Positions 4,268-47,303 of a stretch of 64,000 nt of DNA are shown piece after piece. The notes under the pieces were generated by a model that searched no databases, had not been told where the DNA came from, and saw nothing but the letters and a program-made list of their open reading frames with translations. The DNA comes from Streptomyces durmitorensis (lineage in GTDB: Bacteria; Actinomycetota; Actinomycetes; Streptomycetales; Streptomycetaceae), in the NCBI RefSeq assembly GCF_023498005.1, contig NZ_CP097289.1, forward strand, positions 5,456,001 through 5,520,000. Reading direction: 5' to 3'. Both the position numbers and the translations under genes were made by a program. The stretch's first letter is position 1, and every line of letters starts with the position of its first letter.

Positions 4268-4439
4268 GAACCCCAGCACAGCAGAAGGCCCGCGCCGAAT
4301 CGGGCTGCGGCGCCCAGCGGGTCGGCAGTGACACCCGGGCGCCGCACGGCGGGTGGCCGGGGCCCGCTCGCGCACCGCGGTCCACGAGGTCCGAAGGCCC
4401 CCTGATCTTGGTGCCTTTGGGCTGGTCGGCGCGTGCCCT

Positions 4440-4463
4440 ACGACTCTGCTCCACAGGAGTCGT
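4440..4463. promoter_or_regulatory. Inverted repeat upstream of narK
   Basis: ACGACTC (4440-4446) and GAGTCGT (4457-4463) form 7-base arms around a 10-base spacer, 66 bases before the narK start codon. It could be a regulator site or an mRNA hairpin. It matches no consensus I can name. Confidence 0.35.
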
Positions 4464-4529
4464 GCACGGCACCGTGGAAACGTCAGGCCCCGGAGCAAGG
4501 TCGGGACCGGTAGCGAACTGGGAACCAAC

Positions 4530-5963
4530 ATGAGATCGCCTGCCACCCAAGAAGCGCAGACCGCACCAGTGGACGCGACGTACGACACGACGCAGTACCG
4601 CCCCGGCAAGACCATCACCGACTGGGAGCCGGAGAACGAACTCTTCTGGAAGTCCATCGGCAAGAAGGTCGCGTCCCGCAACCTGTGGATCGCCGTCCCC
4701 GCGCTCCTGGTGGCGTTCGTCGTCTGGCAGGTGTGGTCGGTCACCGCGACCAACCTCAAGGACGTCGGCTTCGGCTTCTCCACCTCGCAGCTGTTCTGGC
4801 TGACGGCCGTCCCCGGCATCACCGGCGGCACGGCGCGCATCTTCTACACCTTCCTCGGCCCGATGATCGGCCAGCGCCGCTTCACCGCGCTCTCGACGAT
4901 CGTCCTGGTCATCCCGCTGATCTGGCTGGGCATAGCGGTCCAGGACCCGAACACCTCGTACGGCGTGATGATCGCCATCGCGGCCCTGTGCGGCGTCGGC
5001 GGCGCGAACTTCGCCTCGTCCCTCGCCAACATCGGCTTCTTCTTCCCCAAGCGGGACAAGGGCAACGCCACCGGCATCAACGGCGGCCTCGGCAACCTCG
5101 GTGTCTCCGTCGTCCAGCTGGTCACCCCGATCGTCATCACCAGCTCGGTCCTCGCGGTCGGCTCGGCCCAGCACAAGGCCGACGGCACGCCCGTGTTCCT
5201 GCAGAACGCCGCGTTCCTGTGGGTGCCGGTCCTGGTGATCCTGGCCGTCGTCGCGTGGTTCGGCCAGAACGACCTGAAGGTCGCGTCGACCCCCTTCAGC
5301 CAGCAGAAGATCATCTTCAAGCGCAAGCACAACTGGCTGATGACCTGGCTCTACGTCGGCACGTTCGGTTCCTTCATCGGCTTCGCGGCGGCTCTGCCGA
5401 TGCTCATCAAGACGACGTTCACGCCGATCGACGCGGCCTACTCCGCGGCGACGTACGCCTGGATGGGCCCGGCCGTGGGTGCGCTCGCACGCTGGGCCGG
5501 CGGCTGGATCGCCGACAAGATCGGCGGCGCCAGGGTCACCATCATCTCGTTCGTCGGCATGGCGGTCTCGATCATCGGCGTCATCAACTTCCTGCCCTCC
5601 GGCGGCGACAACGGCAACTTCTACGGCTTCTTCGCCTGCTTCCTGGCCGCGTTCTTCTTCTCGGGCATCGGCAACGGCTCGACGTTCCGCCAGATCCCGG
5701 TGATCTTCCGCGCCCAGCACCTGAAGGGTCTGACGGAGGGCACGCCCGAGTACACGAAGGCGCTGAAGCAGTCCGAGATGGAGGCGGGCGCCGTCACCGG
5801 CTTCACCTCCGCCATCGCGGCGTACGGCTTCTTCTTCATCCCGGCGATGTTCGCCAACTTCGCGGTGACCAGCGCGATGTGGGGCTTCGTGGCCTTCTAC
5901 GTCAGCTGTATCGCGGTCTGCTGGTGGTTCTACGCCCGCAAGGGCGCGGAGTCCCCGAGCTGA
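4530..5963 (+). CDS. narK: NarK-type nitrate/nitrite transporter (MFS)
   Basis: A 477-residue major facilitator of the nitrate/nitrite porter branch. After a hydrophilic N-terminus (DWEPENELFWKS, typical of NarK) there are twelve predicted membrane segments. Two family hallmarks are visible: GGTARIFYTF in helix 2 and the Gly-rich NFASSLANIGFFFPKRDKG plus NATGINGGLGNLG nitrate signature in helix 5. A second Gly-rich motif (FFSGIGNGSTFRQIP) corresponds to the helix-11 signature. The start at MRSPATQ is chosen because upstream sequence lacks coding character. No nitrate reductase genes are adjacent, so this is an orphan transporter serving reductases elsewhere. It is followed by a terminator-like hairpin and by pflB. 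Confidence 0.95.
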   Translation: MRSPATQEAQTAPVDATYDTTQYRPGKTITDWEPENELFWKSIGKKVASRNLWIAVPALLVAFVVWQVWSVTATNLKDVGFGFSTSQLFWLTAVPGITGGTARIFYTFLGPMIGQRRFTALSTIVLVIPLIWLGIAVQDPNTSYGVMIAIAALCGVGGANFASSLANIGFFFPKRDKGNATGINGGLGNLGVSVVQLVTPIVITSSVLAVGSAQHKADGTPVFLQNAAFLWVPVLVILAVVAWFGQNDLKVASTPFSQQKIIFKRKHNWLMTWLYVGTFGSFIGFAAALPMLIKTTFTPIDAAYSAATYAWMGPAVGALARWAGGWIADKIGGARVTIISFVGMAVSIIGVINFLPSGGDNGNFYGFFACFLAAFFFSGIGNGSTFRQIPVIFRAQHLKGLTEGTPEYTKALKQSEMEAGAVTGFTSAIAAYGFFFIPAMFANFAVTSAMWGFVAFYVSCIAVCWWFYARKGAESPS

Positions 5964-5987
5964 CGTCCTGGGCGGCGTCGGCGGGCT

Positions 5988-6013
5988 GGGCCGGGTGTGG
6001 GAGCACCCGGCCC
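5988..6013 (+). terminator. Terminator hairpin after narK
   Basis: Perfect 10-bp stem, GGGCCGGGTG (5988-5997) with CACCCGGCCC (6004-6013), and a 6-base loop, 25 bases after the narK stop codon. It should insulate pflB from narK transcription. Confidence 0.75.
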
Positions 6014-6102
6014 ACTCGCATGTCCAGGCCCTCTTGGCACTCCTGACTCTCTTGGCATTCCTGGCCCTCCTGACCCCGTACCACGGGATGTGCGGGAAAT
6101 TC

Positions 6103-6120
6103 TTGTGAATGCATTCACAA
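6103..6120. promoter_or_regulatory. Rex-type operator (perfect palindrome)
   Basis: TTGTGAATGCATTCACAA is a perfect 18-base palindrome matching the Streptomyces Rex operator pattern TGTGAA-N4-TTCACA. Rex is a repressor that leaves DNA when the NADH/NAD+ ratio rises. The site sits 177 bases before the pflB start and overlaps the presumed -35 element. Binding itself is inferred, and the rex gene is not in this window. Confidence 0.85.
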
Positions 6121-6132
6121 GCGAACTTAGGT
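6103..6132 (+). promoter_or_regulatory. Putative pflB promoter overlapping the Rex site
   Basis: TTGTGA (6103-6108) and TTAGGT (6127-6132), separated by 18 bases, resemble a vegetative sigma promoter. The -35 would lie inside the Rex palindrome, a geometry suited to repression. Assigned by eye. Confidence 0.45.
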
Positions 6133-6296
6133 CCAAAGTCCCGAGAGAAACCCCAGGTCAGGATGGGTGCTTCTGGTCGGGGGAGCGGAGAGAGGGGACC
6201 TCGGGCCCCGAAGTGGGGACCATTGCGGCGCCGCTGATCGATCAAACCGGAGTGCAATGGAGGCATAGCGAAAAGACGACTCGGAAGGTGCCGGCG

Positions 6297-8555
6297 ATGA
6301 CTGCCACTCCCGCGGAAACGACAGTGCACGGCGAGGCATGGGACGGCTTCAAGGGTGGCCTGTGGCGGGACGCCATCGACGTCCGCGACTTCGTGCAGCA
6401 GAACTACACCCCGTACGAGGGCGACGACTCCTTCCTGGCCGGCGCGACCGAACGCACCACCCAGGTCTGGCAGAAGCTCCTTGCGATGTTCCCGGCGGAG
6501 ATCGAGCGCGGCATCCACGACGTCGACGTGAAGACCCCCTCCCGCATCGACGCCTTCAGGCCCGGCTACATCGACGGCGACCGGGACCTCATCGTCGGCC
6601 TCCAGACCGACGCCCCGCTGCGCCGCGCCATCATGCCCAACGGCGGCTGGCGCATGGTCGAGGGCGCACTCAACGCCTACGGCTACGAGGCCGACCCCGA
6701 GGTCAGGGAGGTCTACACGCACCTCCGCAAGACCCACAACGAAGGTGTCTTCGACGCCTACACGCCCGAGATCCGCGCCTGCCGCTCCTCCGGCATCATC
6801 ACCGGCCTGCCCGACGCCTACGGCCGAGGCCGCATCATCGGCGACTACCGCCGCGTCGCGCTCTACGGAGTCGACCGCCTCATCGCCGCGAAGGAGGCCG
6901 ACAAGGCGCTCCTCGGCGAGGAGTGGGCCACCGAGGACGTCATCCGGGCCCGCGAGGAGACCTCCGAGCAGATCAAGGCCCTGGGCGAACTGAAGGCCAT
7001 GGCGATGTCGTACGGCTACGACATCTCCGGCCCCGCCACCAACGGCCGCGAGGCCGTCCAGTGGCTGTACTTCGCCTACCTGGCCGCCGTGAAGGAGCAG
7101 AACGGCGCGGCCATGTCGATCGGCCGCATCGACAACTTCCTCGACATCTACCTCCAGCGCGACATCGAGTCCGGCCGCATCACCGAGACCGAGGCCCAGG
7201 AGTTCATCGACGACTTCGTCATCAAGCTCCGCATCGTCCGCTTCCTGCGCACCCCCGAGTACAACGAGCTCTACTCCGGCGACCCCACCTGGGTCACCTG
7301 GTCGATGGCCGGCATCGGCCAGGACGGCCGCCCGCTGGTCTCCCGCACCACGTTCCGTGCCCTGCAGACCCTCTACAACCTGGGCCCGGCCCCCGAGCCG
7401 AACCTGACGGTCTTCTGGGCGCGGGAACTGCCCAAGGGCTTCAAGGACTTCGCCGCCAAGGTCGCCATCGACACCTCGGCCATCCAGTTCGAGTCCGACG
7501 ACCTGATGCGCCCGAAGTACGGCGACGACACCGCGATCGCCTGCTGCGTCTCGGCGATGGCCGTCGGCAAGCAGATGCAGTTCTTCGGAGCCCGCGTCAA
7601 CGTCGCCAAGGCTCTGCTCTACGCGATTAACGGCGGACGTGACGAGAAGACCGGCAAGCGCGTCGTCGAGGGCTTCGAGCCCATCGAGGGCGACTACCTG
7701 GACTACGACACCGTCGCCGAGCGCTACGACGCGATGCTCGGCTGGCTCGGCAAGACGTACGTCCACGCGCTGAACGTCATCCACTACATGCACGACAAGT
7801 ACGCCTACGAGCGCATCGAGATGGCGCTGCACGACCAGGAGATCCTGCGCACGATGGCGTGCGGCATCGCGGGCCTCTCGGTCGCGGCCGACTCGCTCTC
7901 GGCCATCAAGCACGCCAAGGTCAAGGTCATCCGCGACGAGACGGGCCTCGCCGTCGACTACGAGATCGAGGGCGACTACCCCGCCTACGGCAACAACGAC
8001 GAGCGGGCCGACGCCATCGCCCAGCGGATCGTCTCGGACTTCATGGGCAAGATCCGCCGTCACCCCACCTACCGGAACGCGGTGCACACCCAGTCCGTCC
8101 TGACGATCACCTCGAACGTCGTCTACGGCAAGAAGACCGGCAACACCCCCGACGGCCGCCGCGCGGGCGAGCCGTTCGCCCCCGGAGCCAACCCGATGAA
8201 CGGCCGCGACGAACACGGCTACATCGCCTCCGCGCTGTCGGTCGCCAAGCTCAACTACGACGACGCCGAGGACGGCATCTCCCTCACCAACACCATCACG
8301 CCGGACGCCCTGGGCCGCACCCCCGGCGAGCGGATCCAGAACCTCTCCGGGGTCCTCGACGGATTCATGGCCAGCGACGGCTTCCACATGAACGTCAACG
8401 TGCTCGACAAGGCGACCCTCCAGGACGCCATGGAGCACCCGGAGAACTACCCGCAGCTGACCATCAGGGTCTCCGGCTACGCGGTCAACTTCATCCGCCT
8501 GACCCGCGACCAGCAGCTGGACGTCATCAACCGCACCTTCCACGGCTCCCTCTGA
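6297..8555 (+). CDS. pflB: Pyruvate formate-lyase (formate C-acetyltransferase)
   Basis: A glycyl-radical enzyme of 752 residues (E. coli PflB has 759). It cleaves pyruvate with CoA to acetyl-CoA plus formate in the cytoplasm without oxygen. The start at MTATPAE is chosen for the GGAAGG site at 6283-6288. The catalytic cysteine pair is Cys416-Cys417 in AIACCVSAM. The radical-bearing glycine is Gly727 in RVSGYAV, 25 residues from the C-terminus. The body aligns with family landmarks such as [29 protein letters not shown] and [18 protein letters not shown]. The activase gene follows at 8667 across a gap with a hairpin, and a Rex-type site lies upstream. PFL is unexpected in a strictly aerobic filamentous organism and suggests survival metabolism under hypoxia. 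Confidence 0.97.
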
Positions 8556-8592
8556 GCCACCGGCTCCCCACGAGCCACCCCCGATCCGCGGC

Positions 8593-8623
8593 CCCGGAGC
8601 CGGCCCCTCACCCCGGCTCCGGG
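8593..8623 (+). terminator. Hairpin in the pflB-pflA gap (terminator or attenuator)
   Basis: CCCGGAGCCGG (8593-8603) and CCGGCTCCGGG (8613-8623) make an 11-bp perfect stem with a 9-base loop between pflB and pflA. If transcription only partly stops here, far more PflB than activase would be made, matching the catalytic role of the activase. Confidence 0.6.
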
Positions 8624-8666
8624 CGCCGCGAACATCACGTCCTGCCAGTAGTCCGGGAGTTCTGCC

Positions 8667-9461
8667 ATGACTGTCCTGCTCGACACGGCGATCGAATCCA
8701 CCACCCCGGCGGCCGCGGTCACCCGGCGCCCCGTCACCGGATCCATCCACTCCTGGGACCTGTCCACCGGCGTCGACGGCCCCGGCAGCCGCTTCGTCAC
8801 GTTCCTCTCGGGCTGCCCGCTGACCTGCCTGTACTGCCACAACCCCGACACCTGGCGGATGCGCGACGGCAAGCGGACCACCGCCGACGACGTGATCAAG
8901 GAAGCCGCCAAGTACACCAGGTTCATCTCGGCGGCGGGCGGCGGCGCCACCGTCAGCGGCGGCGAACCCCTCCTGCAGCCCGTCTTCACCGGCGAACTGC
9001 TGCACCGCCTCAAGCACGAACTGGGCCTGCACACCGCCCTCGACACCTCCGGCTTCCTCGGCGTGCGCGCCACCGACGCCCTGCTCCGTGACGTCGACCT
9101 CGTGCTCCTGGACATCAAGTCCTGGGACCGCGAGACGTACAAGAAGGTCACCGGGCGCCCGCTGCGGCCCACCCTCGACTTCGCCCACCGCCTCGCCGGC
9201 CTCGGCAAGGAGGTCTGGGTGCGCTTCGTCCTCGTGCCCGGTCTGACCGACGACCCGGAGAACATCGAGGGCGTCGCCCGCTTCGCCGCCTCGCTCGGCA
9301 ACGTCTCGCGCGTCGACGTGCTGCCCTTCCACAAGCTGGGCGAGGCGAAGTGGGACGCACTCGGCAAGGACTTCACCCTGCGCGACACCCCCTCGCCGAC
9401 TCCGGCGCAGGTGGCCACCGCCAAGGAGATCTTCGCAGCTCAGGGGCTCACGGCCGTCTGA
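8667..9461 (+). CDS. pflA: Pyruvate formate-lyase-activating enzyme (radical SAM)
   Basis: A radical S-adenosylmethionine enzyme of 264 residues that installs the glycyl radical on PflB. The cluster-binding motif is CPLTCLYC, with Cys50, Cys54 and Cys57 in the CX3CX2C spacing. Family features SGGEPLLQ, LDTSGF, DLVLLDIKSWD and RFVLVPGLTDD follow in order. N-terminal RRPVTGSIHSWDLSTGVDGPG resembles the E. coli PflA entry strand (GXIHSXEXXGXVDGPG), here lengthened by about 20 residues. It lies 111 bases behind pflB on the same strand; no other promoter is obvious. Activity requires reduced flavodoxin or ferredoxin, not encoded here. Confidence 0.96.
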   Translation: MTVLLDTAIESTTPAAAVTRRPVTGSIHSWDLSTGVDGPGSRFVTFLSGCPLTCLYCHNPDTWRMRDGKRTTADDVIKEAAKYTRFISAAGGGATVSGGEPLLQPVFTGELLHRLKHELGLHTALDTSGFLGVRATDALLRDVDLVLLDIKSWDRETYKKVTGRPLRPTLDFAHRLAGLGKEVWVRFVLVPGLTDDPENIEGVARFAASLGNVSRVDVLPFHKLGEAKWDALGKDFTLRDTPSPTPAQVATAKEIFAAQGLTAV

Positions 9462-9726: not shown

Positions 9727-9742
9727 GCGCGCGCTAGCGCTC
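9725..9742. terminator. Short shared hairpin between two convergent genes
   Basis: GAGCGC (9725-9730) and GCGCTC (9737-9742) with a 6-base loop overlap both convergent stop codons. It is a weak 6-bp stem that could act in either direction. Confidence 0.35.
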
Positions 9743-10213
9743 GTCGTGCCCCGAGCCGCGCTGGGCCACCAGGGCGTCGCGGATCTCCTTGAGGACCTCC
9801 AGCTCCGAGAGCTCGAGAACCTCCTGCGTCCCCTCCTTGGCGGCCTTCCGCGCGGCCTGCTTCGCCAGGTACTTGGCCATGGGCAGCACCATCAGGAAAT
9901 AGACGACGGCCGCGGTGATCACGAAGCTGAGCGTCGCGCTGAGCACGGAGCCCCACATGATCGGGATGCCGCTCTCGACCGTGCCGTCGGCCTTCATGAC
10001 GCACGGGGCCTTCAGGCATGAGCTGTAGTGGTCGAGGTCCTTCGTACCGAAGGCACCGACCAGCGGGTTGATGACACCCTTCACCACGGAGTTCACGATG
10101 TTCGTGAACGCGGCGCCGATGACCACCGCGACCGCCAGGTCGATGACATTGCCGCGCATCAGGAAGGCCTTGAAGCCCTCCCAGAGACTCGGTTCGTTCT
10201 TCTCGCTCACCAC
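9734..10213 (-). CDS. mscL: Large-conductance mechanosensitive channel MscL
   Basis: A 159-residue inner-membrane channel that opens on membrane tension to release solutes during osmotic downshock. The N-terminal amphipathic region and first helix read WEGFKAFLMRGNVIDLAVAV, the diagnostic MscL signature including the pore-lining Gly/Ala face. A periplasmic loop containing two Cys residues, a second helix (SFVITAAVVYFLMVLPMAKY) and a charged cytoplasmic helix (VLELSELEVLKEIRDALVAQ) complete the fold. ATG at 10213 is followed by GTG AGC, so translation may begin one codon later. The order mscL next to the FmdB/galU cluster matches mycobacteria. Confidence 0.97.
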   Translation of the reverse strand: MVSEKNEPSLWEGFKAFLMRGNVIDLAVAVVIGAAFTNIVNSVVKGVINPLVGAFGTKDLDHYSSCLKAPCVMKADGTVESGIPIMWGSVLSATLSFVITAAVVYFLMVLPMAKYLAKQAARKAAKEGTQEVLELSELEVLKEIRDALVAQRGSGHDER

Positions 10214-11068: not shown

Positions 11069-11929
11069 TCACGGCAGCCGAATCCCCGTCTCCATCCCGC
11101 CCAGCGCCCCCGCACACAAGCAGTCCCGCTCACCCTCCGCCGGCAGCCCCGCCACCGCGTCGAACAGCACCGTCCGCAGCCGGTCCACATTCGCCGCGAA
11201 CACCTGGAGCACCTCTCCGTGCGAGACGCCCTCGCCGCTCTCCGCCCCCGCGTCCAGGTCCGTGACCAGCGTCAACGACGTGTAGCAGAGCTCCAGTTCA
11301 CGGGCGAGCACGGCCTCGGGATGCCCCGTCATGCCGACCACCGACCAGCCCTGCGCCGCGTGCCAGAGCGATTCGGCCCGGGTCGAGAACCGCGGCCCTT
11401 CGATCACCACGAGCGTCCCGCCGTCCACCGGCTCCCACTCACGCCCGCGGGCCGCCTTCAGGGCGGCGCTGCGTCCGACGGGGCAGTACGGGTCGGCCGG
11501 CGACACGTGCACGACGTTCGGGATGCTCCCGTCCGCCAGCGGCACCCCGTCGAAATACGTCTGCGTACGCGTCTTCGTGCGGTCCACGAGCTGATCGGGC
11601 ACCAGCAGCGTCCCGGGCCCGAAATCGGGCCGCAGCCCGCCCACCGCACACGGGCCGAGCACCTGCCGTACGCCCACGGAACGCAGCGCCCACAGGTTGG
11701 CGCGGTAGTTGATGCGATGCGGCGGCAGATGGTGTCCGCGGCCGTGCCGGGGCAGGAACGCGACCCGCCGTCCGGCGATGTCACCGAGGAAGAGGGAGTC
11801 GCTCGGCGCTCCGTAGGGGGTGTCGACCTGGAGCTCGGTCACGTTGTCGAGGAAGGAGTAGAGACCGGAGCCGCCGATGACACCGATCTCGGCGCGTTCC
11901 GTGCTGGTCGTGTCCGCCGTATTCACCAT
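11069..11929 (-). CDS. MTA/purine nucleoside phosphorylase family protein
   Basis: A cytoplasmic phosphorylase of 286 residues in the PNP/MTAP superfamily. It probably splits 5'-methylthioadenosine or a related purine nucleoside with phosphate for salvage. The N-terminal phosphate-binding GVIGGSGLYSFL, RHGRGHHLPPHRINYRAN, and the later VVGMTGHPEAVLARELELCY segment are diagnostic of the family. The residues that separate MTAP from inosine-specific relatives cannot be judged confidently by eye, so no gene symbol is given. The start at MVNTADTT (11929) is favoured over the in-frame GTG three codons earlier. It is 75 bases downstream of the FmdB-type gene but separated from it by a strong hairpin. 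Confidence 0.87.
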   Translation of the reverse strand: MVNTADTTSTERAEIGVIGGSGLYSFLDNVTELQVDTPYGAPSDSLFLGDIAGRRVAFLPRHGRGHHLPPHRINYRANLWALRSVGVRQVLGPCAVGGLRPDFGPGTLLVPDQLVDRTKTRTQTYFDGVPLADGSIPNVVHVSPADPYCPVGRSAALKAARGREWEPVDGGTLVVIEGPRFSTRAESLWHAAQGWSVVGMTGHPEAVLARELELCYTSLTLVTDLDAGAESGEGVSHGEVLQVFAANVDRLRTVLFDAVAGLPAEGERDCLCAGALGGMETGIRLP

Positions 11930-11965
11930 GCCGAGCACAGTAGCCGGGCCCCGGAACGCCGAAAT

Positions 11966-11989
11966 CCCCGCTGTCGGACGACAGCGGGG
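11966..11989 (-). terminator. Terminator hairpin after the FmdB-type gene
   Basis: CCCCGCTGTC (11966-11975) and GACAGCGGGG (11980-11989) form a perfect 10-bp stem with a 4-base loop just past the stop codon of the leftward FmdB-type gene. Confidence 0.8.
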
Positions 11990-12004: not shown

Positions 12005-12376
12005 CTAGGCGGCCGACGAGCTGGAGGAACTCGAAGAGCTGGACGAGCCGGCCGACGAACCCGAGGAGGAGCCGGACGACTTCGAGTCCGAAGAGCCCGA
12101 GGAGGAGGACGAAGCGCCCGCGGTGGACTTGGAGTCCGACGGCTTGGAGTCCGAGGACTTCGACGCGTTCGCCGTCGACGGCGTGCTGCTCGACGACGAG
12201 CCGCGGCTGTCGTTGCGGTAGAAACCGGAGCCCTTGAAGACGATGCCGACCGCCGAGAACACCTTCTTGAGGCGTCCGTCGCAGCTGGGGCATACGGTCA
12301 GGGCGTCATCAGTGAACTTCTGCACCGCCTCGAGGCCCTCGCCGCATTCGGTGCACTGGTACTGGTACGTCGGCAC
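12005..12376 (-). CDS. FmdB-family zinc-ribbon protein with Ser-rich tail (likely Ruc-type redox-regulated chaperone)
   Basis: A 123-residue protein in two parts. The first 55 residues form an FmdB-type zinc ribbon (MPTYQYQCTECG through CPSCDGRLKKVF) with Cys8, Cys11, Cys29 and Cys32. The remainder is a low-complexity, disordered tail of almost pure Ser with Asp, Lys, Ala and Gly. M. tuberculosis Rv0991c (Ruc), an oxidation-activated chaperone with the same layout, lies in the same neighbourhood (mscL, formyl-THF cyclo-ligase, galU), so orthology is likely. AGGAGG precedes the ATG. Upstream I see a SigR-type promoter and a CIRCE element, which predicts induction by disulfide and heat stress. 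The chaperone role is inferred. Confidence 0.88.
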   Translation of the reverse strand: MPTYQYQCTECGEGLEAVQKFTDDALTVCPSCDGRLKKVFSAVGIVFKGSGFYRNDSRGSSSSSTPSTANASKSSDSKPSDSKSTAGASSSSSGSSDSKSSGSSSGSSAGSSSSSSSSSSSAA

Positions 12377-12386
12377 TTGCTTCCTC

Positions 12387-12413
12387 CTGGCACTCTCACT
12401 CGTTGAGTGCTAA
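12387..12413 (-). promoter_or_regulatory. CIRCE element (HrcA operator)
   Basis: Read on the minus strand this is TTAGCACTC (12413-12405), a 9-base spacer, and GAGTGCCAG (12395-12387). The CIRCE consensus is TTAGCACTC-N9-GAGTGCTAA: the first arm is perfect, the second matches 7 of 9, and the spacer length is exact. It lies just upstream of the FmdB-type gene, overlapping its promoter's -10 at one end and its ribosome-binding site at the other. Confidence 0.82.
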
Positions 12414-12437
12414 CGACGGTCCATAGTGACGTATTCC
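12412..12437 (-). promoter_or_regulatory. SigR/SigH-type promoter of the FmdB-type gene
   Basis: On the minus strand GGAAT (12437-12433) is followed after exactly 18 bases by GTT (12414-12412), within TCGTTAG. This is the SigR consensus GGAAT-N18-GTT used for thiol-oxidative stress genes in Streptomyces (SigH in mycobacteria). The predicted transcription start falls inside the CIRCE element. Confidence 0.7.
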
Positions 12438-12443
12438 GCGGGA

Positions 12444-13709
12444 TCAGTCCACCGTGACCGGCTCGCGGTGACCGACGCCACGTGCGACGGTGCGTCCGAC
12501 GGACCGCGGAACGAGCCGCGAACGCAGGGTCACGAGCACCGCGAGCGCGAGCGCCGTACCGCCCAGCGGCACCAGGAAACCGGCGCCGTCCCAGAAGCGG
12601 TCCTCAAGCTGTCCCGCGACCGTGACGGCGGCCGCCTGGCCGAGCGCGACGGCGCCGGTGAGCCAGGTGAACGCCTCGGTGCGGCCTGACGGGTCCACCA
12701 GCCGGTCGACCAGCGTGTAGCCGGTGATCAGCGCGGGCGCGATGCAGACGCCGACCAGGAGGCCGAGCCCGGCGAGCAGCACCACGGAGTGCGCGGCCCA
12801 CAGGCCGGAGGCCATCAGGGTCAGCGCCGCGTACCCGACGAGGAGCCGCCGCTGCGGGGCGATCTTCCAGGCGATGGCTCCGCAGACGAGTCCGGAGAGC
12901 ATGTTGCCCGCCGCGAACGTGCCGTACAGGACGCCGTTCAGGCCGGGTTCGCCGATGGACTCGGTGAAGGCGGCCAGCGAGACCTGCATGCCGCCGAAGA
13001 CGGCGCCGATGCCCAGGAAGGTCACGATCAGCACCCGCACACCGGGGATCCGCAGCGCCGAGACGTGCTCCACGCGCGCGTGCTCCTCGCGGGAGGCGGG
13101 CTTGGGCTGGGTGCTCTTCTGCGCGGCGAACAGCAGGCCGCCCACCAGCGTGAGTCCGGCCTCCGTGAAGAGTCCGGCCGCCGGGTCGATGGTCGTGCAC
13201 AGCGCGGTCGCGAAGAGCGGGCCGAGGACGAACGTCAGCTCGTCCGTGACCGACTCGAAGGCGGCCGCCGTGCCCGCCAGCGGGGAGTCCTGGAGCTTGA
13301 CGCCCCAGCGGGCCCGCACCATGGGACTGATCTGCGGCTGCGAGGCGCCGGTGGGCACCGCCGCGACGAAGAGCGCCCACAAGGGGGCGTCGGAGAGTGC
13401 GAGCACCGTCAGGGAGAGCACCGACACCGTGTGGATGAGGACACCCGGCACCAGTACGGCCCGCTGGCCGAACCGGTCGGCGAGCTTGCCGCCGAAGGGG
13501 GCGAAGACCGCCATGGAGACGCCGGTGACGGCCGATACGGCGCCCGCGACGCCGTACGAGCCGGTGGTGTGCTGCACGAGCAGCACGATGGAGATGGTCA
13601 GCATCGCGAAGGGCTGTCGTGCCGCGAAGCCGGGCAGGAGAAACGTCCAGGCGCCGCGGGTGCGCAGCAGCTGTCCGTATCCGGGGCGGGAGGTGACCGT
13701 GGATGCCAC
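12444..13709 (-). CDS. MFS transporter
   Basis: A major facilitator of 421 residues with about twelve hydrophobic segments. The GTG start at 13709 (VASTVTSRPGYGQLL) is preferred: it has AAAGG upstream and the frame before it is Arg/Gly/Pro-rich without transporter character. The loop 2-3 MFS motif appears as GGKLADRFGQRAVL. The first helix GAWTFLLPGFAARQPFAMLT is typical of a Streptomyces exporter subgroup of unknown substrate. The gene ends only 7 bases before the SigR-type promoter of the FmdB gene, so it is probably expressed separately. Confidence 0.88.
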   Translation of the reverse strand: MASTVTSRPGYGQLLRTRGAWTFLLPGFAARQPFAMLTISIVLLVQHTTGSYGVAGAVSAVTGVSMAVFAPFGGKLADRFGQRAVLVPGVLIHTVSVLSLTVLALSDAPLWALFVAAVPTGASQPQISPMVRARWGVKLQDSPLAGTAAAFESVTDELTFVLGPLFATALCTTIDPAAGLFTEAGLTLVGGLLFAAQKSTQPKPASREEHARVEHVSALRIPGVRVLIVTFLGIGAVFGGMQVSLAAFTESIGEPGLNGVLYGTFAAGNMLSGLVCGAIAWKIAPQRRLLVGYAALTLMASGLWAAHSVVLLAGLGLLVGVCIAPALITGYTLVDRLVDPSGRTEAFTWLTGAVALGQAAAVTVAGQLEDRFWDGAGFLVPLGGTALALAVLVTLRSRLVPRSVGRTVARGVGHREPVTVD

Positions 13710-13957
13710 GGCCCGTGCCTTTCTGCCGCCTGGTAGCGCGGCCCCCCTTTTCAGGGCGACGGCGCCGAGAGCTGTCCTCTTGCGCGGGACTGCGGTAGAT
13801 GCCGGTTGCCCACTGCGAGGACACGCGGCCGCCATACGGTCGGCGCCAGCTCTGCTTCAGACAGAGTTGGTTCGATCAGTTGGTACAGAAGAAGTGTGCC
13901 TTCATCGTACAGGGAATGGGACCACCGGACCTGTGAATACGGAGAATGAGGCGCCCG

Positions 13958-18529: not shown

Positions 18530-19141
18530 TCAGCGGAAGCGCCGCACTCCCGACGGCGTGACGACGGCGTGCACCGGCTTGTCGTGCGCCTCCTGGGGTA
18601 CGTGGGCGACGACCTCCGTGTCGTACAGGAGCACCACCAGGGCGGGATCGGCCCCGGCCCGTCCGAGCCGGGCGAGCACCCTGTCGTAGGACCCGCCGCC
18701 GCGCCCGAGCCGCATCCCGCGCTCGTCCACGGCCAGGCCCGGAAGCAGCACGGCGTCCGCCGCCACGACGGCATCGGGACCGAGCCGCGCCCCTGAGGGC
18801 TCCAAGAGCGCCATCTTTCCCGGGTGTTGCACGCGGGCCAGCGAGCCCTCGCCCTCATAGGCCGCCCAGTCCAGGTCGTTGTCCGCGAGGAGCACCGGGA
18901 GCAGGACCCGCGTCCCGCGCGCGTGGAGGACGTCGAGGAGCGCTCGCGTCCCCGGCTCGCTCCCCACGGAGACGTACGCCGCGACCGTGCGCGCCCCGGC
19001 GAGCTCCGGCAGCTCCGATGCGCGGTCGGCGAGAACCGCGGCGGCCTTCTGCGCGTCATCCCTAGTCAACCGGCTTCTCACCGCGAGGAATTCTCCGCGC
19101 AATGTGCGCTTGGTTGGCTCGGCCGGGCCGGTTTCTTCCAT
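18530..19141 (-). CDS. 5-formyltetrahydrofolate cyclo-ligase
   Basis: A 203-residue cytoplasmic ATP-dependent enzyme that converts 5-formyl-THF to 5,10-methenyl-THF. The start is MEETGPAEP at 19141; sequence before it lacks family character. KRTLRGEFLAVRSRLT gives the N-terminal Lys/Arg folate and ATP region. The hallmark nucleotide-binding loop is RGMRLGRGGGSYDRVL, followed by a C-terminal strand with VHAVVTPSGVRRF. It is divergent from galU, which mirrors mycobacterial Rv0992c-galU. Confidence 0.93.
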   Translation of the reverse strand: MEETGPAEPTKRTLRGEFLAVRSRLTRDDAQKAAAVLADRASELPELAGARTVAAYVSVGSEPGTRALLDVLHARGTRVLLPVLLADNDLDWAAYEGEGSLARVQHPGKMALLEPSGARLGPDAVVAADAVLLPGLAVDERGMRLGRGGGSYDRVLARLGRAGADPALVVLLYDTEVVAHVPQEAHDKPVHAVVTPSGVRRFR

Positions 19142-19235
19142 GGTGCGCTCACAAACCCTTCCAGGTGCGCTCATATGAGAACAAAATGTCCGGAGGCACA
19201 GATTCCGCACATACTCACCGGTTATGGTTACCGAC

Positions 19236-20141
19236 ATGACTGAGTCTCACCCCCACAGGATCAGCAAGGCTGTCATTCCGGCAGCAGGTCTGGGCACCCG
19301 GTTCCTGCCGGCGACCAAGGCCACTCCCAAGGAGATGCTGCCGGTCGTCGACAAGCCGGCGATTCAGTACGTGGTCGAGGAGGCCGCCTCCGCAGGCCTC
19401 GATGACGTCCTCATGATCACGGGCCGCAACAAGCGCCCCCTGGAGGACCACTTCGACCGCAACTACGAGCTGGAGTCGGCCCTTCTGAAGAAGGGCGACG
19501 AGGCGAGACTGGCGAAGGTCCAGGAGTCCAGCGACCTCGCGACCATGCACTACGTACGCCAGGGAGACCCCAAGGGACTCGGTCACGCCGTCCTGTGCGC
19601 CGCGCCGCACGTCGGCGACGAACCGTTCGCCGTCCTCCTCGGCGACGACCTGATCGACCCGCGCGACCCGCTCCTCGCCCGCATGGTCGAGGTCCAGGAG
19701 CGGCACGGCGGCAGCGTCATCGCCCTCATGGAGGTGGCCCCCGAGCAGATCCACCTCTACGGCTGCGCGGCGGTCGACGCCACGGACGAGGGTGACGTCG
19801 TCAAGGTGACGGGCCTGGTCGAGAAGCCCGACGCGGCGGATGCCCCCAGCAACTACGCCATCATCGGCCGCTATGTCCTTGACCCGCACGTCTTCGACAT
19901 ACTGCGCAAGACCGAGCCCGGCCGCGGCGGCGAGATCCAGCTCACCGACGCACTCCAGCAGCTCGCCGTCGACGAGAAGGTCGGCGGCCCCGTGCACGGC
20001 GTCGTCTTCAAGGGCCGCCGCTATGACACCGGCGACCGCGGCGACTATCTGCGTGCCATTGTCAGACTCGCGTGCGAACGTGAAGACCTGGGCCCGGACT
20101 TCCAGGCCTGGCTTCGCAGTTACGTGTCCGAGGAGATGTAG
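19236..20141 (+). CDS. galU: UTP--glucose-1-phosphate uridylyltransferase
   Basis: A 301-residue nucleotidyltransferase that makes UDP-glucose from UTP and glucose-1-phosphate for glycan and trehalose synthesis. The N-terminal signature AVIPAAGLGTRFLPATK plus EMLPVVDKPAIQYVVEEA is fully conserved. Later motifs include GHAVLCAAP, FAVLLGDDLID with the metal-binding Asp pair, LVEKPDAADAPSNYAIIGRY, and EIQLTDAL. ATG at 19236 (MTESHPH) is chosen by family length; an in-frame ATG four codons earlier (19224) is possible and neither has a strong ribosome-binding site. The stop is 4 bases before the glp start, so the two are translationally linked. Confidence 0.96.
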   Translation: MTESHPHRISKAVIPAAGLGTRFLPATKATPKEMLPVVDKPAIQYVVEEAASAGLDDVLMITGRNKRPLEDHFDRNYELESALLKKGDEARLAKVQESSDLATMHYVRQGDPKGLGHAVLCAAPHVGDEPFAVLLGDDLIDPRDPLLARMVEVQERHGGSVIALMEVAPEQIHLYGCAAVDATDEGDVVKVTGLVEKPDAADAPSNYAIIGRYVLDPHVFDILRKTEPGRGGEIQLTDALQQLAVDEKVGGPVHGVVFKGRRYDTGDRGDYLRAIVRLACEREDLGPDFQAWLRSYVSEEM

Positions 20142-28435: not shown

Positions 28436-30019
28436 ATGGCCGAGGACGAGCGCCAGCAGGAGCGCGGGCAGGGGTCCGAGCTCGGGGGCGAACGCGAGCA
28501 TGTGCGGGTGGCGGTGATCGGGTCCGGCTTCGGCGGGATCGGTGCCGCGGTCCGGCTGCGCCGGGAGGGCGTCACCGACTTCGTCGTCCTGGAGCGGGCC
28601 GGCGCGGTGGGCGGCACCTGGCGGGACAACAGCTACCCGGGCTGCGCGTGCGACGTGCCCTCGCATCTGTACTCGTTCTCCTTCGCGCCCAACCCCGACT
28701 GGCCGCGCACCTTCTCGGGCCAGGAGAAGATCCAGGAGTACCTGGAGCAGGTCGCCGACACCTTCCGGCTGCGCTCGCACATCCGCCTCAACACCGAGGT
28801 GACACAGCTGCGTTGGGACGCGGACAAGCTGTGGTGGGAGGTCGAGACCAGCGACGGCACCCTCACCGCCGACGTCGTCGTCTCCGCCACCGGGCCGCTC
28901 TCCGACCCCAAGCTCCCCGACATTCCCGGCCTGGACACCTTCGAGGGCAAGGTCTTCCACTCCGCGCGCTGGGACCACGACTACGACCTGCGCGGCAAGC
29001 GCGTCGCGATGATCGGAACCGGCGCGTCCGCCATCCAGATCGTGCCCGCGATCCAACGCGAGGTCGGCAGGCTCACCCTCTTCCAGCGCACTCCGCCCTG
29101 GGTGATGCCACGCATGGACCGCGCCATCAGCAAGGCCGAGCGCTGGGTGCACCGCCAGCTGCCGTTCACCACGCACGCCCGGCGCGGAATCCTGTGGGGC
29201 ATAAGGGAGTTGCAGGTCCAGGCGTTCACCAAGCGGCCGAACGAGCTCGGCGCGGTCGAGCAGCTCGCCAAGCGGAACATCGCACGCGCCATCAAGGACC
29301 CGGCGCTGCGGGCCAAGCTGACGCCCTCGTACCGCATCGGCTGCAAGCGGATCCTGCTCTCCAACACCTATTACCCGGCGCTCGCGCAGCCCAATGTGGA
29401 CGTCGTCGCCAGCGGGCTCAGCGAGGTGCGCGGGAACACCGTCGTCGCCGCGGACGGCACCGAGACCGAGGTCGACGTGATCATCTTCGGTACGGGATTC
29501 CATGTGACGGACATGCCGATCGCCAACCGCGTGGTGGGCGCCGACGGCGGGACGCTGATGGAGTCCTGGAAGGACGGGATGAAGTCCCTGCGCGGCGCGA
29601 CCGCCGCGGGCTTCCCCAACTTCATGACGGTCATCGGCCCGAACACCGGTCTCGGCAACTCCTCGATGATCCTGATGATCGAGTCCCAGCTGAACTATCT
29701 CGCCGACTACATGCGGCAGTTGGACGTCCTGGGCGACCGCGCCGCGCTCGCCGCGCGGATGAGCGCCGTGCACGCCTGGAACGACCAGGTGCAGGAGCGC
29801 ATGAAGCGCACCGTGTGGAACACCGGCGGCTGCAACAGCTGGTACCTCGACGAGAACGGCGTGAACACCACGATCTGGCCGGGTACGACGAGCGAGTTCC
29901 GGGGTGCCACGCGGCGGGTCGATCTCGCCGAGTACGAGGTGGTGCGGCCGCCGAAGGTGAGTGCGGAGGCGGCGAGGCCGAAGTCCCGTAAGGCGAAGAA
30001 GGTCGAGGCAGAGGCATGA
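28436..30019 (+). CDS. Flavin-containing monooxygenase (Baeyer-Villiger type)
   Basis: A 527-residue FAD- and NADPH-dependent monooxygenase. The FAD-binding loop is VIGSGFGGIGAAVRL (GSGFGGIG at 29-36). The Baeyer-Villiger fingerprint FxGxxxHxxxW is present as FEGKVFHSARWDHD. The second Rossmann loop GTGASAIQIVPAI binds NADPH. A conserved WRDNSYPGCACDVPSHLYS block also matches the group. The next gene overlaps by 4 bases (ATGA). The trio monooxygenase-hydrolase-SDR resembles mymA-lipR-sadH of M. tuberculosis. Likely role: oxidation of a ketone or lipid, followed by ester hydrolysis and alcohol oxidation; the substrate is not known. Confidence 0.93.
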   Translation: MAEDERQQERGQGSELGGEREHVRVAVIGSGFGGIGAAVRLRREGVTDFVVLERAGAVGGTWRDNSYPGCACDVPSHLYSFSFAPNPDWPRTFSGQEKIQEYLEQVADTFRLRSHIRLNTEVTQLRWDADKLWWEVETSDGTLTADVVVSATGPLSDPKLPDIPGLDTFEGKVFHSARWDHDYDLRGKRVAMIGTGASAIQIVPAIQREVGRLTLFQRTPPWVMPRMDRAISKAERWVHRQLPFTTHARRGILWGIRELQVQAFTKRPNELGAVEQLAKRNIARAIKDPALRAKLTPSYRIGCKRILLSNTYYPALAQPNVDVVASGLSEVRGNTVVAADGTETEVDVIIFGTGFHVTDMPIANRVVGADGGTLMESWKDGMKSLRGATAAGFPNFMTVIGPNTGLGNSSMILMIESQLNYLADYMRQLDVLGDRAALAARMSAVHAWNDQVQERMKRTVWNTGGCNSWYLDENGVNTTIWPGTTSEFRGATRRVDLAEYEVVRPPKVSAEAARPKSRKAKKVEAEA

Positions 30020-47092: not shown

Positions 47093-47303
47093 GTGTTGCC
47101 CCCCGAGACCTTCGTGCACCCCTGACTACGAGGCTGTGAGGTTACTGGCTGCGGTCAGAGTGAGGGAAGGGGCGTGTGGGCGCCCGGGGTGCGGAGGGGC
47201 TCCGTTTCGGTTTCGAACTGAAGGGCTGCTGAGGCGTTCGGTGGGGAATCGATGGGTGGGCATGACTGTTCGCCTTGCTATGAGTGACGGTGTGGAGGCG
47301 GGT

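Follow-up and report, generated by a model that had tools for sequence, protein, structure and literature searches.

Read on the minus strand, 62 bases of the window (the whole stretch of 64,000 nucleotides analysed here) hold a GGAAT, 18 spacer bases, a GTT, a CIRCE element, a Shine-Dalgarno sequence and the GTG start of a gene of the ruc/FmdB type (Table 1). These features are interlocked, as CIRCE, the predicted HrcA operator, begins with the last two bases of the GTT, and its right end has two bases in common with the Shine-Dalgarno AGGAGGA. An earlier note on this DNA had described a SigR consensus ending inside a CIRCE placed directly before the ribosome-binding site, and both its coordinates and this placement are confirmed. 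Because the right arm of CIRCE touches the Shine-Dalgarno, we also considered an RNA switch that would hide the Shine-Dalgarno in a transcript starting upstream but not in the SigR transcript; the predicted openness was 0.39 vs 0.43 (29 loci) and this candidate was rejected.

Table 1. Coordinates of the ruc-type gene, its promoter-region elements and its gene neighbours in the window
Feature	Position	Strand	Basis
ruc/FmdB-type gene, 123 aa, GTG start 12376-12374	12005..12376	-	PF09723, TIGR02605
CIRCE (predicted HrcA operator), arms 9/9 and 7/9, spacer 9	12387..12413	-	motif search
CIRCE left arm TTAGCACTC	12413-12405	-	
CIRCE right arm GAGTGCCAG	12395-12387	-	
SigR-type promoter string GGAAT-N18-GTT	12437-12412	-	
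SigR-type -35 element GGAAT	12433..12437	-	sequence and genus conservation
SigR-type -10 element GTT, 18 bases after GGAAT	12412..12414	-	sequence and genus conservation
Shine-Dalgarno AGGAGGA	12382..12388	-	sequence
CACTAT within SigR spacer, putative housekeeping (HrdB-type) -10	12423..12428	-	conserved as CANNAT
TGGACT, possible -35 for CACTAT, spacer 17	12446..12451	-	genus alignment of loci
10-bp hairpin 3' of ruc, terminator-like, without clear T run	11966..11989	-	folding vs shuffles
MFS transporter gene, upstream of ruc	12444-13835	-	
Methylthioadenosine phosphorylase gene, downstream of ruc	11069-11938		
mscL	9734-10213		
5-Formyltetrahydrofolate cyclo-ligase gene	18530-19237		
galU	19224-20141		

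The MFS transporter gene and the methylthioadenosine phosphorylase gene are the immediate neighbours of ruc, the hairpin lying between ruc and the latter (z -2.1; 6/200 shuffles fold equally well). The wider neighbourhood includes mscL, the cyclo-ligase gene, galU, moeA and moaC, with mscL, the cyclo-ligase gene, galU and moeA all at most 10 kb from ruc. M. tuberculosis ruc lies among mscL, the cyclo-ligase gene, galU and moeA1 as well, whereas its immediate neighbours differ from those of streptomycete ruc, and the synteny proposed earlier thus stands for the wider neighbourhood and fails for the adjoining genes. A gene for a penicillin-amidase family protein (PF01804; 15626-18448, plus strand) is also found near ruc. 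Elsewhere in the window, three adjacent plus-strand genes (4353-9461) make up an anaerobic set, which is surprising in a genome taken to be Streptomyces; they encode a nitrate transporter of the NarK type (4353-5963), a pyruvate formate-lyase carrying a glycyl-radical domain (5997-8555; TIGR01255, 1158 bits) and the enzyme that activates it (8667-9461; TIGR02493).

The operator, near the start of the gene, has 2 mismatches to TTAGCACTC-N9-GAGTGCTAA (16/18 arm bases match). At ≤3 mismatches it is the only CIRCE in the window, with 0.01 expected, and one of 5 sites in the 9.86 Mb genome, for which the reversed-pattern control gave 0. Two of the five precede groES-groEL1, two precede groEL2 and one precedes the ruc-type gene (the GroES/GroEL genes were recognised by eye from their translations), and the operator type at ruc is that of the Streptomyces HrcA/CIRCE regulon; unlike ruc, the groES-groEL1 and groEL2 sites have no exact GGAA-N17/19-GTT ending at CIRCE. 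An HrcA gene is present in this genome (G000; E 2.1e-59), which also has a SigR/SigH-type sigma gene above the curated cut-off. According to excerpts of PMC7448276 and PMC8223512, the HrcA regulon of M. tuberculosis is the same gene set; nothing on HrcA was found in PMC2448437.

The encoded protein matches PF09723 (Zn_ribbon_8, 55.3 bits; Pfam) and TIGR02605 (71 bits; NCBIfam), both above cut-off, has the N-terminal zinc ribbon domain of the Ruc family, and is identical to mycobacterial orthologues at ∼40/57 residues. Cys 8, 11, 29 and 32 are present here and in 217/217 loci read, and it is via Cys 8, 11, 29 and 32 that oxidised M. tuberculosis Ruc (Rv0991c) prevents aggregation (PMC7448276, cited throughout from excerpts, in which the mutant names give the Cys positions). 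The C-terminal tail is Ser-rich (40 Ser in 71 residues), hydrophilic and predicted to be disordered as in the Ruc family, although at 71 residues it is slightly longer than the ∼7 to 61 residues given for that family in PMC7448276. AlphaFold2 with 25 sequences returned a low-confidence model (mean pLDDT 57.6) with strands at 4-8, 14-16 and 35-40 and neither strand nor helix predicted in the tail, and a search by sequence for a relative of solved structure found none. The gene is single-copy, and 118/121 genus genomes carry an orthologue with one match each (E≤1e-8), none being found at that threshold in G001, G032 and G050.

The earlier proposal of a Ruc-like protein is borne out by the zinc ribbon, the four Cys and the Ser-rich tail, and the product is likely a holdase chaperone that oxidation activates, as it does Ruc of M. 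tuberculosis. Four Cys, zinc and activity when oxidised (as reported for Ruc) recall Hsp33, but the sequences are unrelated and Ruc-type proteins fall outside the Hsp33 family. The gene might instead be an HrcA-repressed one whose product belongs to the heat-shock regulon as a regulator or assembly factor of the FmdB type and not as a chaperone, which would suit the Pfam and NCBIfam names, as these say zinc ribbon/FmdB family only, and the failure to find a solved relative by sequence. We consider this improbable, as Ruc, the nearest relative to have been characterised, carries the same four Cys and acts as a holdase when oxidised (PMC7448276, excerpts), and an HrcA-type operator is common to this gene and the chaperonin genes.

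The promoter string GGAAT-N18-GTT is of the type used in the S. coelicolor SigR regulon, whose targets include protein quality-control genes (PMC5472188, excerpts), with the difference that the -10 of ruc sits inside a predicted repressor operator. By itself the string is weak evidence because it matches the genome exactly at 75 places, and its reversed control at 18. Two further exact copies lie in the window (29186-29211 and 47245-47270, plus strand). The composite of string and CIRCE occurs exactly once per genome in 114/121 genomes of the genus (taken to be Streptomyces from the nearest named relatives) vs 0/121 for the reversed control, as the earlier note would have it for both motifs before orthologues. 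At ≤3 mismatches it is found in 117/121 genomes vs 1/121 for the control, some of the extra matches being groES/groEL2 CIRCE sites. In 62/62 genomes compared (the first 62 of the 114 listed) the composite lies 8-12 bases before the gene. Of the seven genomes lacking the exact composite, three yielded no gene and the other four carry altered versions, namely a -35 of GGCGC (G022) or GTAAT (G027), a spacer of 19 (G039) and a one-base shift (G094). The N18 form is present in 55/60 streptomycete loci, all 55 of which keep GGAAT and GTT without change. The arrangement is thus genuine and its conservation deep.

This arrangement closely resembles that of M. tuberculosis ruc, likewise a zinc-ribbon gene with Cys 8/11/29/32 and an HrcA-type site overlapping a SigR-type promoter, SigH being the counterpart of SigR. 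There, ruc is repressed by HrcA and heat-induced via SigH, and both DNA sites overlap (Becker et al. 2020, PMC7448276, excerpts); Ruc is abundant at 37°C in an hrcA mutant and rises further at 45°C, and an mpa mutant does not induce ruc at 45°C (same source). Rv0991c is ∼40-fold SigH-dependent after heat, the SigH consensus being GGAAYR-N17-GTT (Sharp et al. 2016, PMC4803200, excerpts). Since the overlap of SigH and HrcA sites before ruc is published in PMC7448276, the SigR/CIRCE overlap described here is a further case of the M. tuberculosis scheme and not a new kind, so that the extension of that system foreseen in the earlier note holds as an additional example, while dual control was already on record for M. 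tuberculosis ruc. The two differ in register, as the Mycobacterium-type GTT ends at the base immediately before CIRCE (five loci) whereas the streptomycete GTT shares two bases with it, and the CANNAT hexamer in the spacer is a streptomycete feature relative to the M. tuberculosis ruc region. A literature search, with subscription journals mostly outside its scope, found no paper on a Streptomyces ruc or FmdB gene under SigR/HrcA.

What is new here is the survey of promoters beneath CIRCE. We read 213 loci, consisting of 30 of the 118 genus matches, 80 named loci (the top 80 among 219 that encode a relative) and 103 from a class search in which 242/246 genomes matched (non-genus rows among the best-scoring matches listed), a sample that does not extend to families with low scores, f21, f29 and f31 among them. 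At ≤4 mismatches, CIRCE precedes ruc in 194/213 loci, or 191/210 with three repeat loci removed, and in 0 of five shuffles of each. The split is 30/30 genus, 74/80 named and 90/103 class-search loci (24/25 sampled families); those without CIRCE are 6 named loci, 8/16 in f22, 2/2 in f5 and one each in f28, f33 and f37. In one locus of f23 (L153) a CIRCE-like site occurs before ruc twice, in tandem.

A SigR-type motif, called as GGAAN-N17-19-GTT ending -10 to +3 of CIRCE, is found in 85 loci (84 without repeats) vs 1.16 expected from shuffles. Its offset from CIRCE is -1 in 68 loci, which besides streptomycetes cover Nocardia, Rhodococcus, Antrihabitans and Amycolatopsis, -2 in 2, -3 in the 5 Mycobacterium-type loci (L103, L105, L106 and two more), and -7 in 10, including Nonomuraea, Pseudonocardia, Parafrankia and one Cellulomonas; this grouping counts L051 (Mangrovactinospora), a streptomycete relative, as outside the streptomycetes. 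All 10 of the offset -7 loci read GTTANNNT, fusing GTT to TANNNT, a hexamer in which the register forces the first and last T and the A is the sole free evidence. By comparison, 95/109 non-streptomycete CIRCE loci without a SigR motif (93/107 without repeats) have a housekeeping-like [TC]ANNNT abutting CIRCE, at -5 in 78 and -6 in 17, vs a maximum of 8/109 elsewhere from -45 to 0. TTGACA (≥4/6, spacing 16-19) accompanies the -10-like hexamer in 43/95 of these loci vs 6.8% in mononucleotide shuffles, and in 0/20 loci of f15 at the usual spacing; the -35 side therefore depends on the family, and f15 may use something else. In f15 loci (e.g. L155, L165, L183), TACTAT touches CIRCE and TGTCGC/TGTCAC recurs ∼20 bases further upstream, as judged by eye.

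In a hand-picked panel with at least one genome per sampled genus group, the HrcA gene is present in 37/37 genomes and a SigR/SigH-type sigma gene above cut-off in 36/37, so that loss of the regulators does not account for a missing SigR motif, and it seems to be promoter wiring that varies and not gene content. In most of the other families sampled, ruc has CIRCE but no SigR motif, so the gene does not generally require SigR input.

In streptomycetes, CANNAT is found inside the SigR spacer in 55/55 N18-form loci, its third and fourth bases being free; by eye, CACACT stands in its place in no fewer than two genomes of the genus (G049, G091). A TGGAC-type string stands 17 bases before it in 28/30 genus loci, a conservation confounded by its overlap with the stop codon of the MFS gene. 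The hexamer is not singled out, as six spacer columns are invariant in total. G022 (L219), where the SigR -35 has been lost, has TAGTAT as its inner hexamer, a suggestive exception that would favour an inner promoter and offers a natural test case. CANNAT is possibly a second, housekeeping -10, resembling the housekeeping promoter of other families moved about one helical turn upstream.

If so, main transcription might come from an HrdB promoter, TGGACT-N17-CACTAT, under HrcA repression, with SigR minor. The presence of CANNAT, free at its two central positions, in all 55 loci, the prevalence of a housekeeping-like -10 beside CIRCE outside the streptomycetes and the TAGTAT of G022 all point this way. 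We nevertheless regard it as unlikely, as a minor promoter leaves the invariance of GGAAT and GTT (55 loci; 114/121 genomes) unexplained, other spacer bases are invariant too, and TGGACT overlaps a stop codon. The 75 genomic copies of the SigR string might suggest that the motif lies next to a genuine CIRCE by coincidence, but this is close to refuted by its exact retention in 114/121 genomes and by the 85 loci against 1.16 expected in shuffles.

HrcA-GroEL titration and RsrA oxidation are general behaviours of these regulator families. In unstressed cells HrcA, kept active by free GroEL, would cover the region where transcription from either possible promoter starts. With GroEL drawn off by misfolded protein, HrcA would leave, while disulfide stress would free SigR from RsrA, and SigR polymerase could use the GTT only once HrcA is off. 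We infer the action of HrcA and SigR at these sites in this organism, and the steric exclusion by overlap from family behaviour and the genetics of the M. tuberculosis orthologue. The housekeeping-type -10 in the spacer would give a basal transcript, likewise repressed by HrcA. Strong output would then mark oxidative unfolding, when an oxidation-activated holdase would be useful.

As the SigR-type and CIRCE sites overlap, such a gate, in which HrcA must leave before SigR polymerase starts, appears likelier than the two independent inputs of the earlier note, whose motifs, conservation and Ruc-like protein otherwise stand. The gate would be leaky and not a strict AND, because loss of hrcA alone raises M. 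tuberculosis Ruc at 37°C (PMC7448276, excerpts). The loss of the SigR -35 in some genus members (G022, G027) counts against a SigR requirement. On balance it is quite probable that in this FmdB/Ruc gene, likely encoding an oxidation-activated holdase, HrcA blocks SigR polymerase at a promoter overlapping CIRCE and full expression needs both disulfide and folding stress; the mechanism is likely one that operates in Streptomyces.

Across the actinomycetes, motif calls on a partial sample, made without a formal tree, give about even chances to a broader reading. The HrcA site of ruc would be old and kept, and the promoter beneath it would have been swapped more than once between the housekeeping and the disulfide-stress sigma factor, in registers -1/-2, -3 and -7; in the -7 form one -10 could serve both sigmas, and in Streptomyces two promoters would be interleaved under one operator. 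The locus thus brings to antibiotic-producing Streptomyces a control scheme published for M. tuberculosis, with an oxidation-activated chaperone gene predicted to read both oxidative and folding stress, and if the survey pattern holds, ruc would be a natural series of sigma-factor change under a kept repressor.
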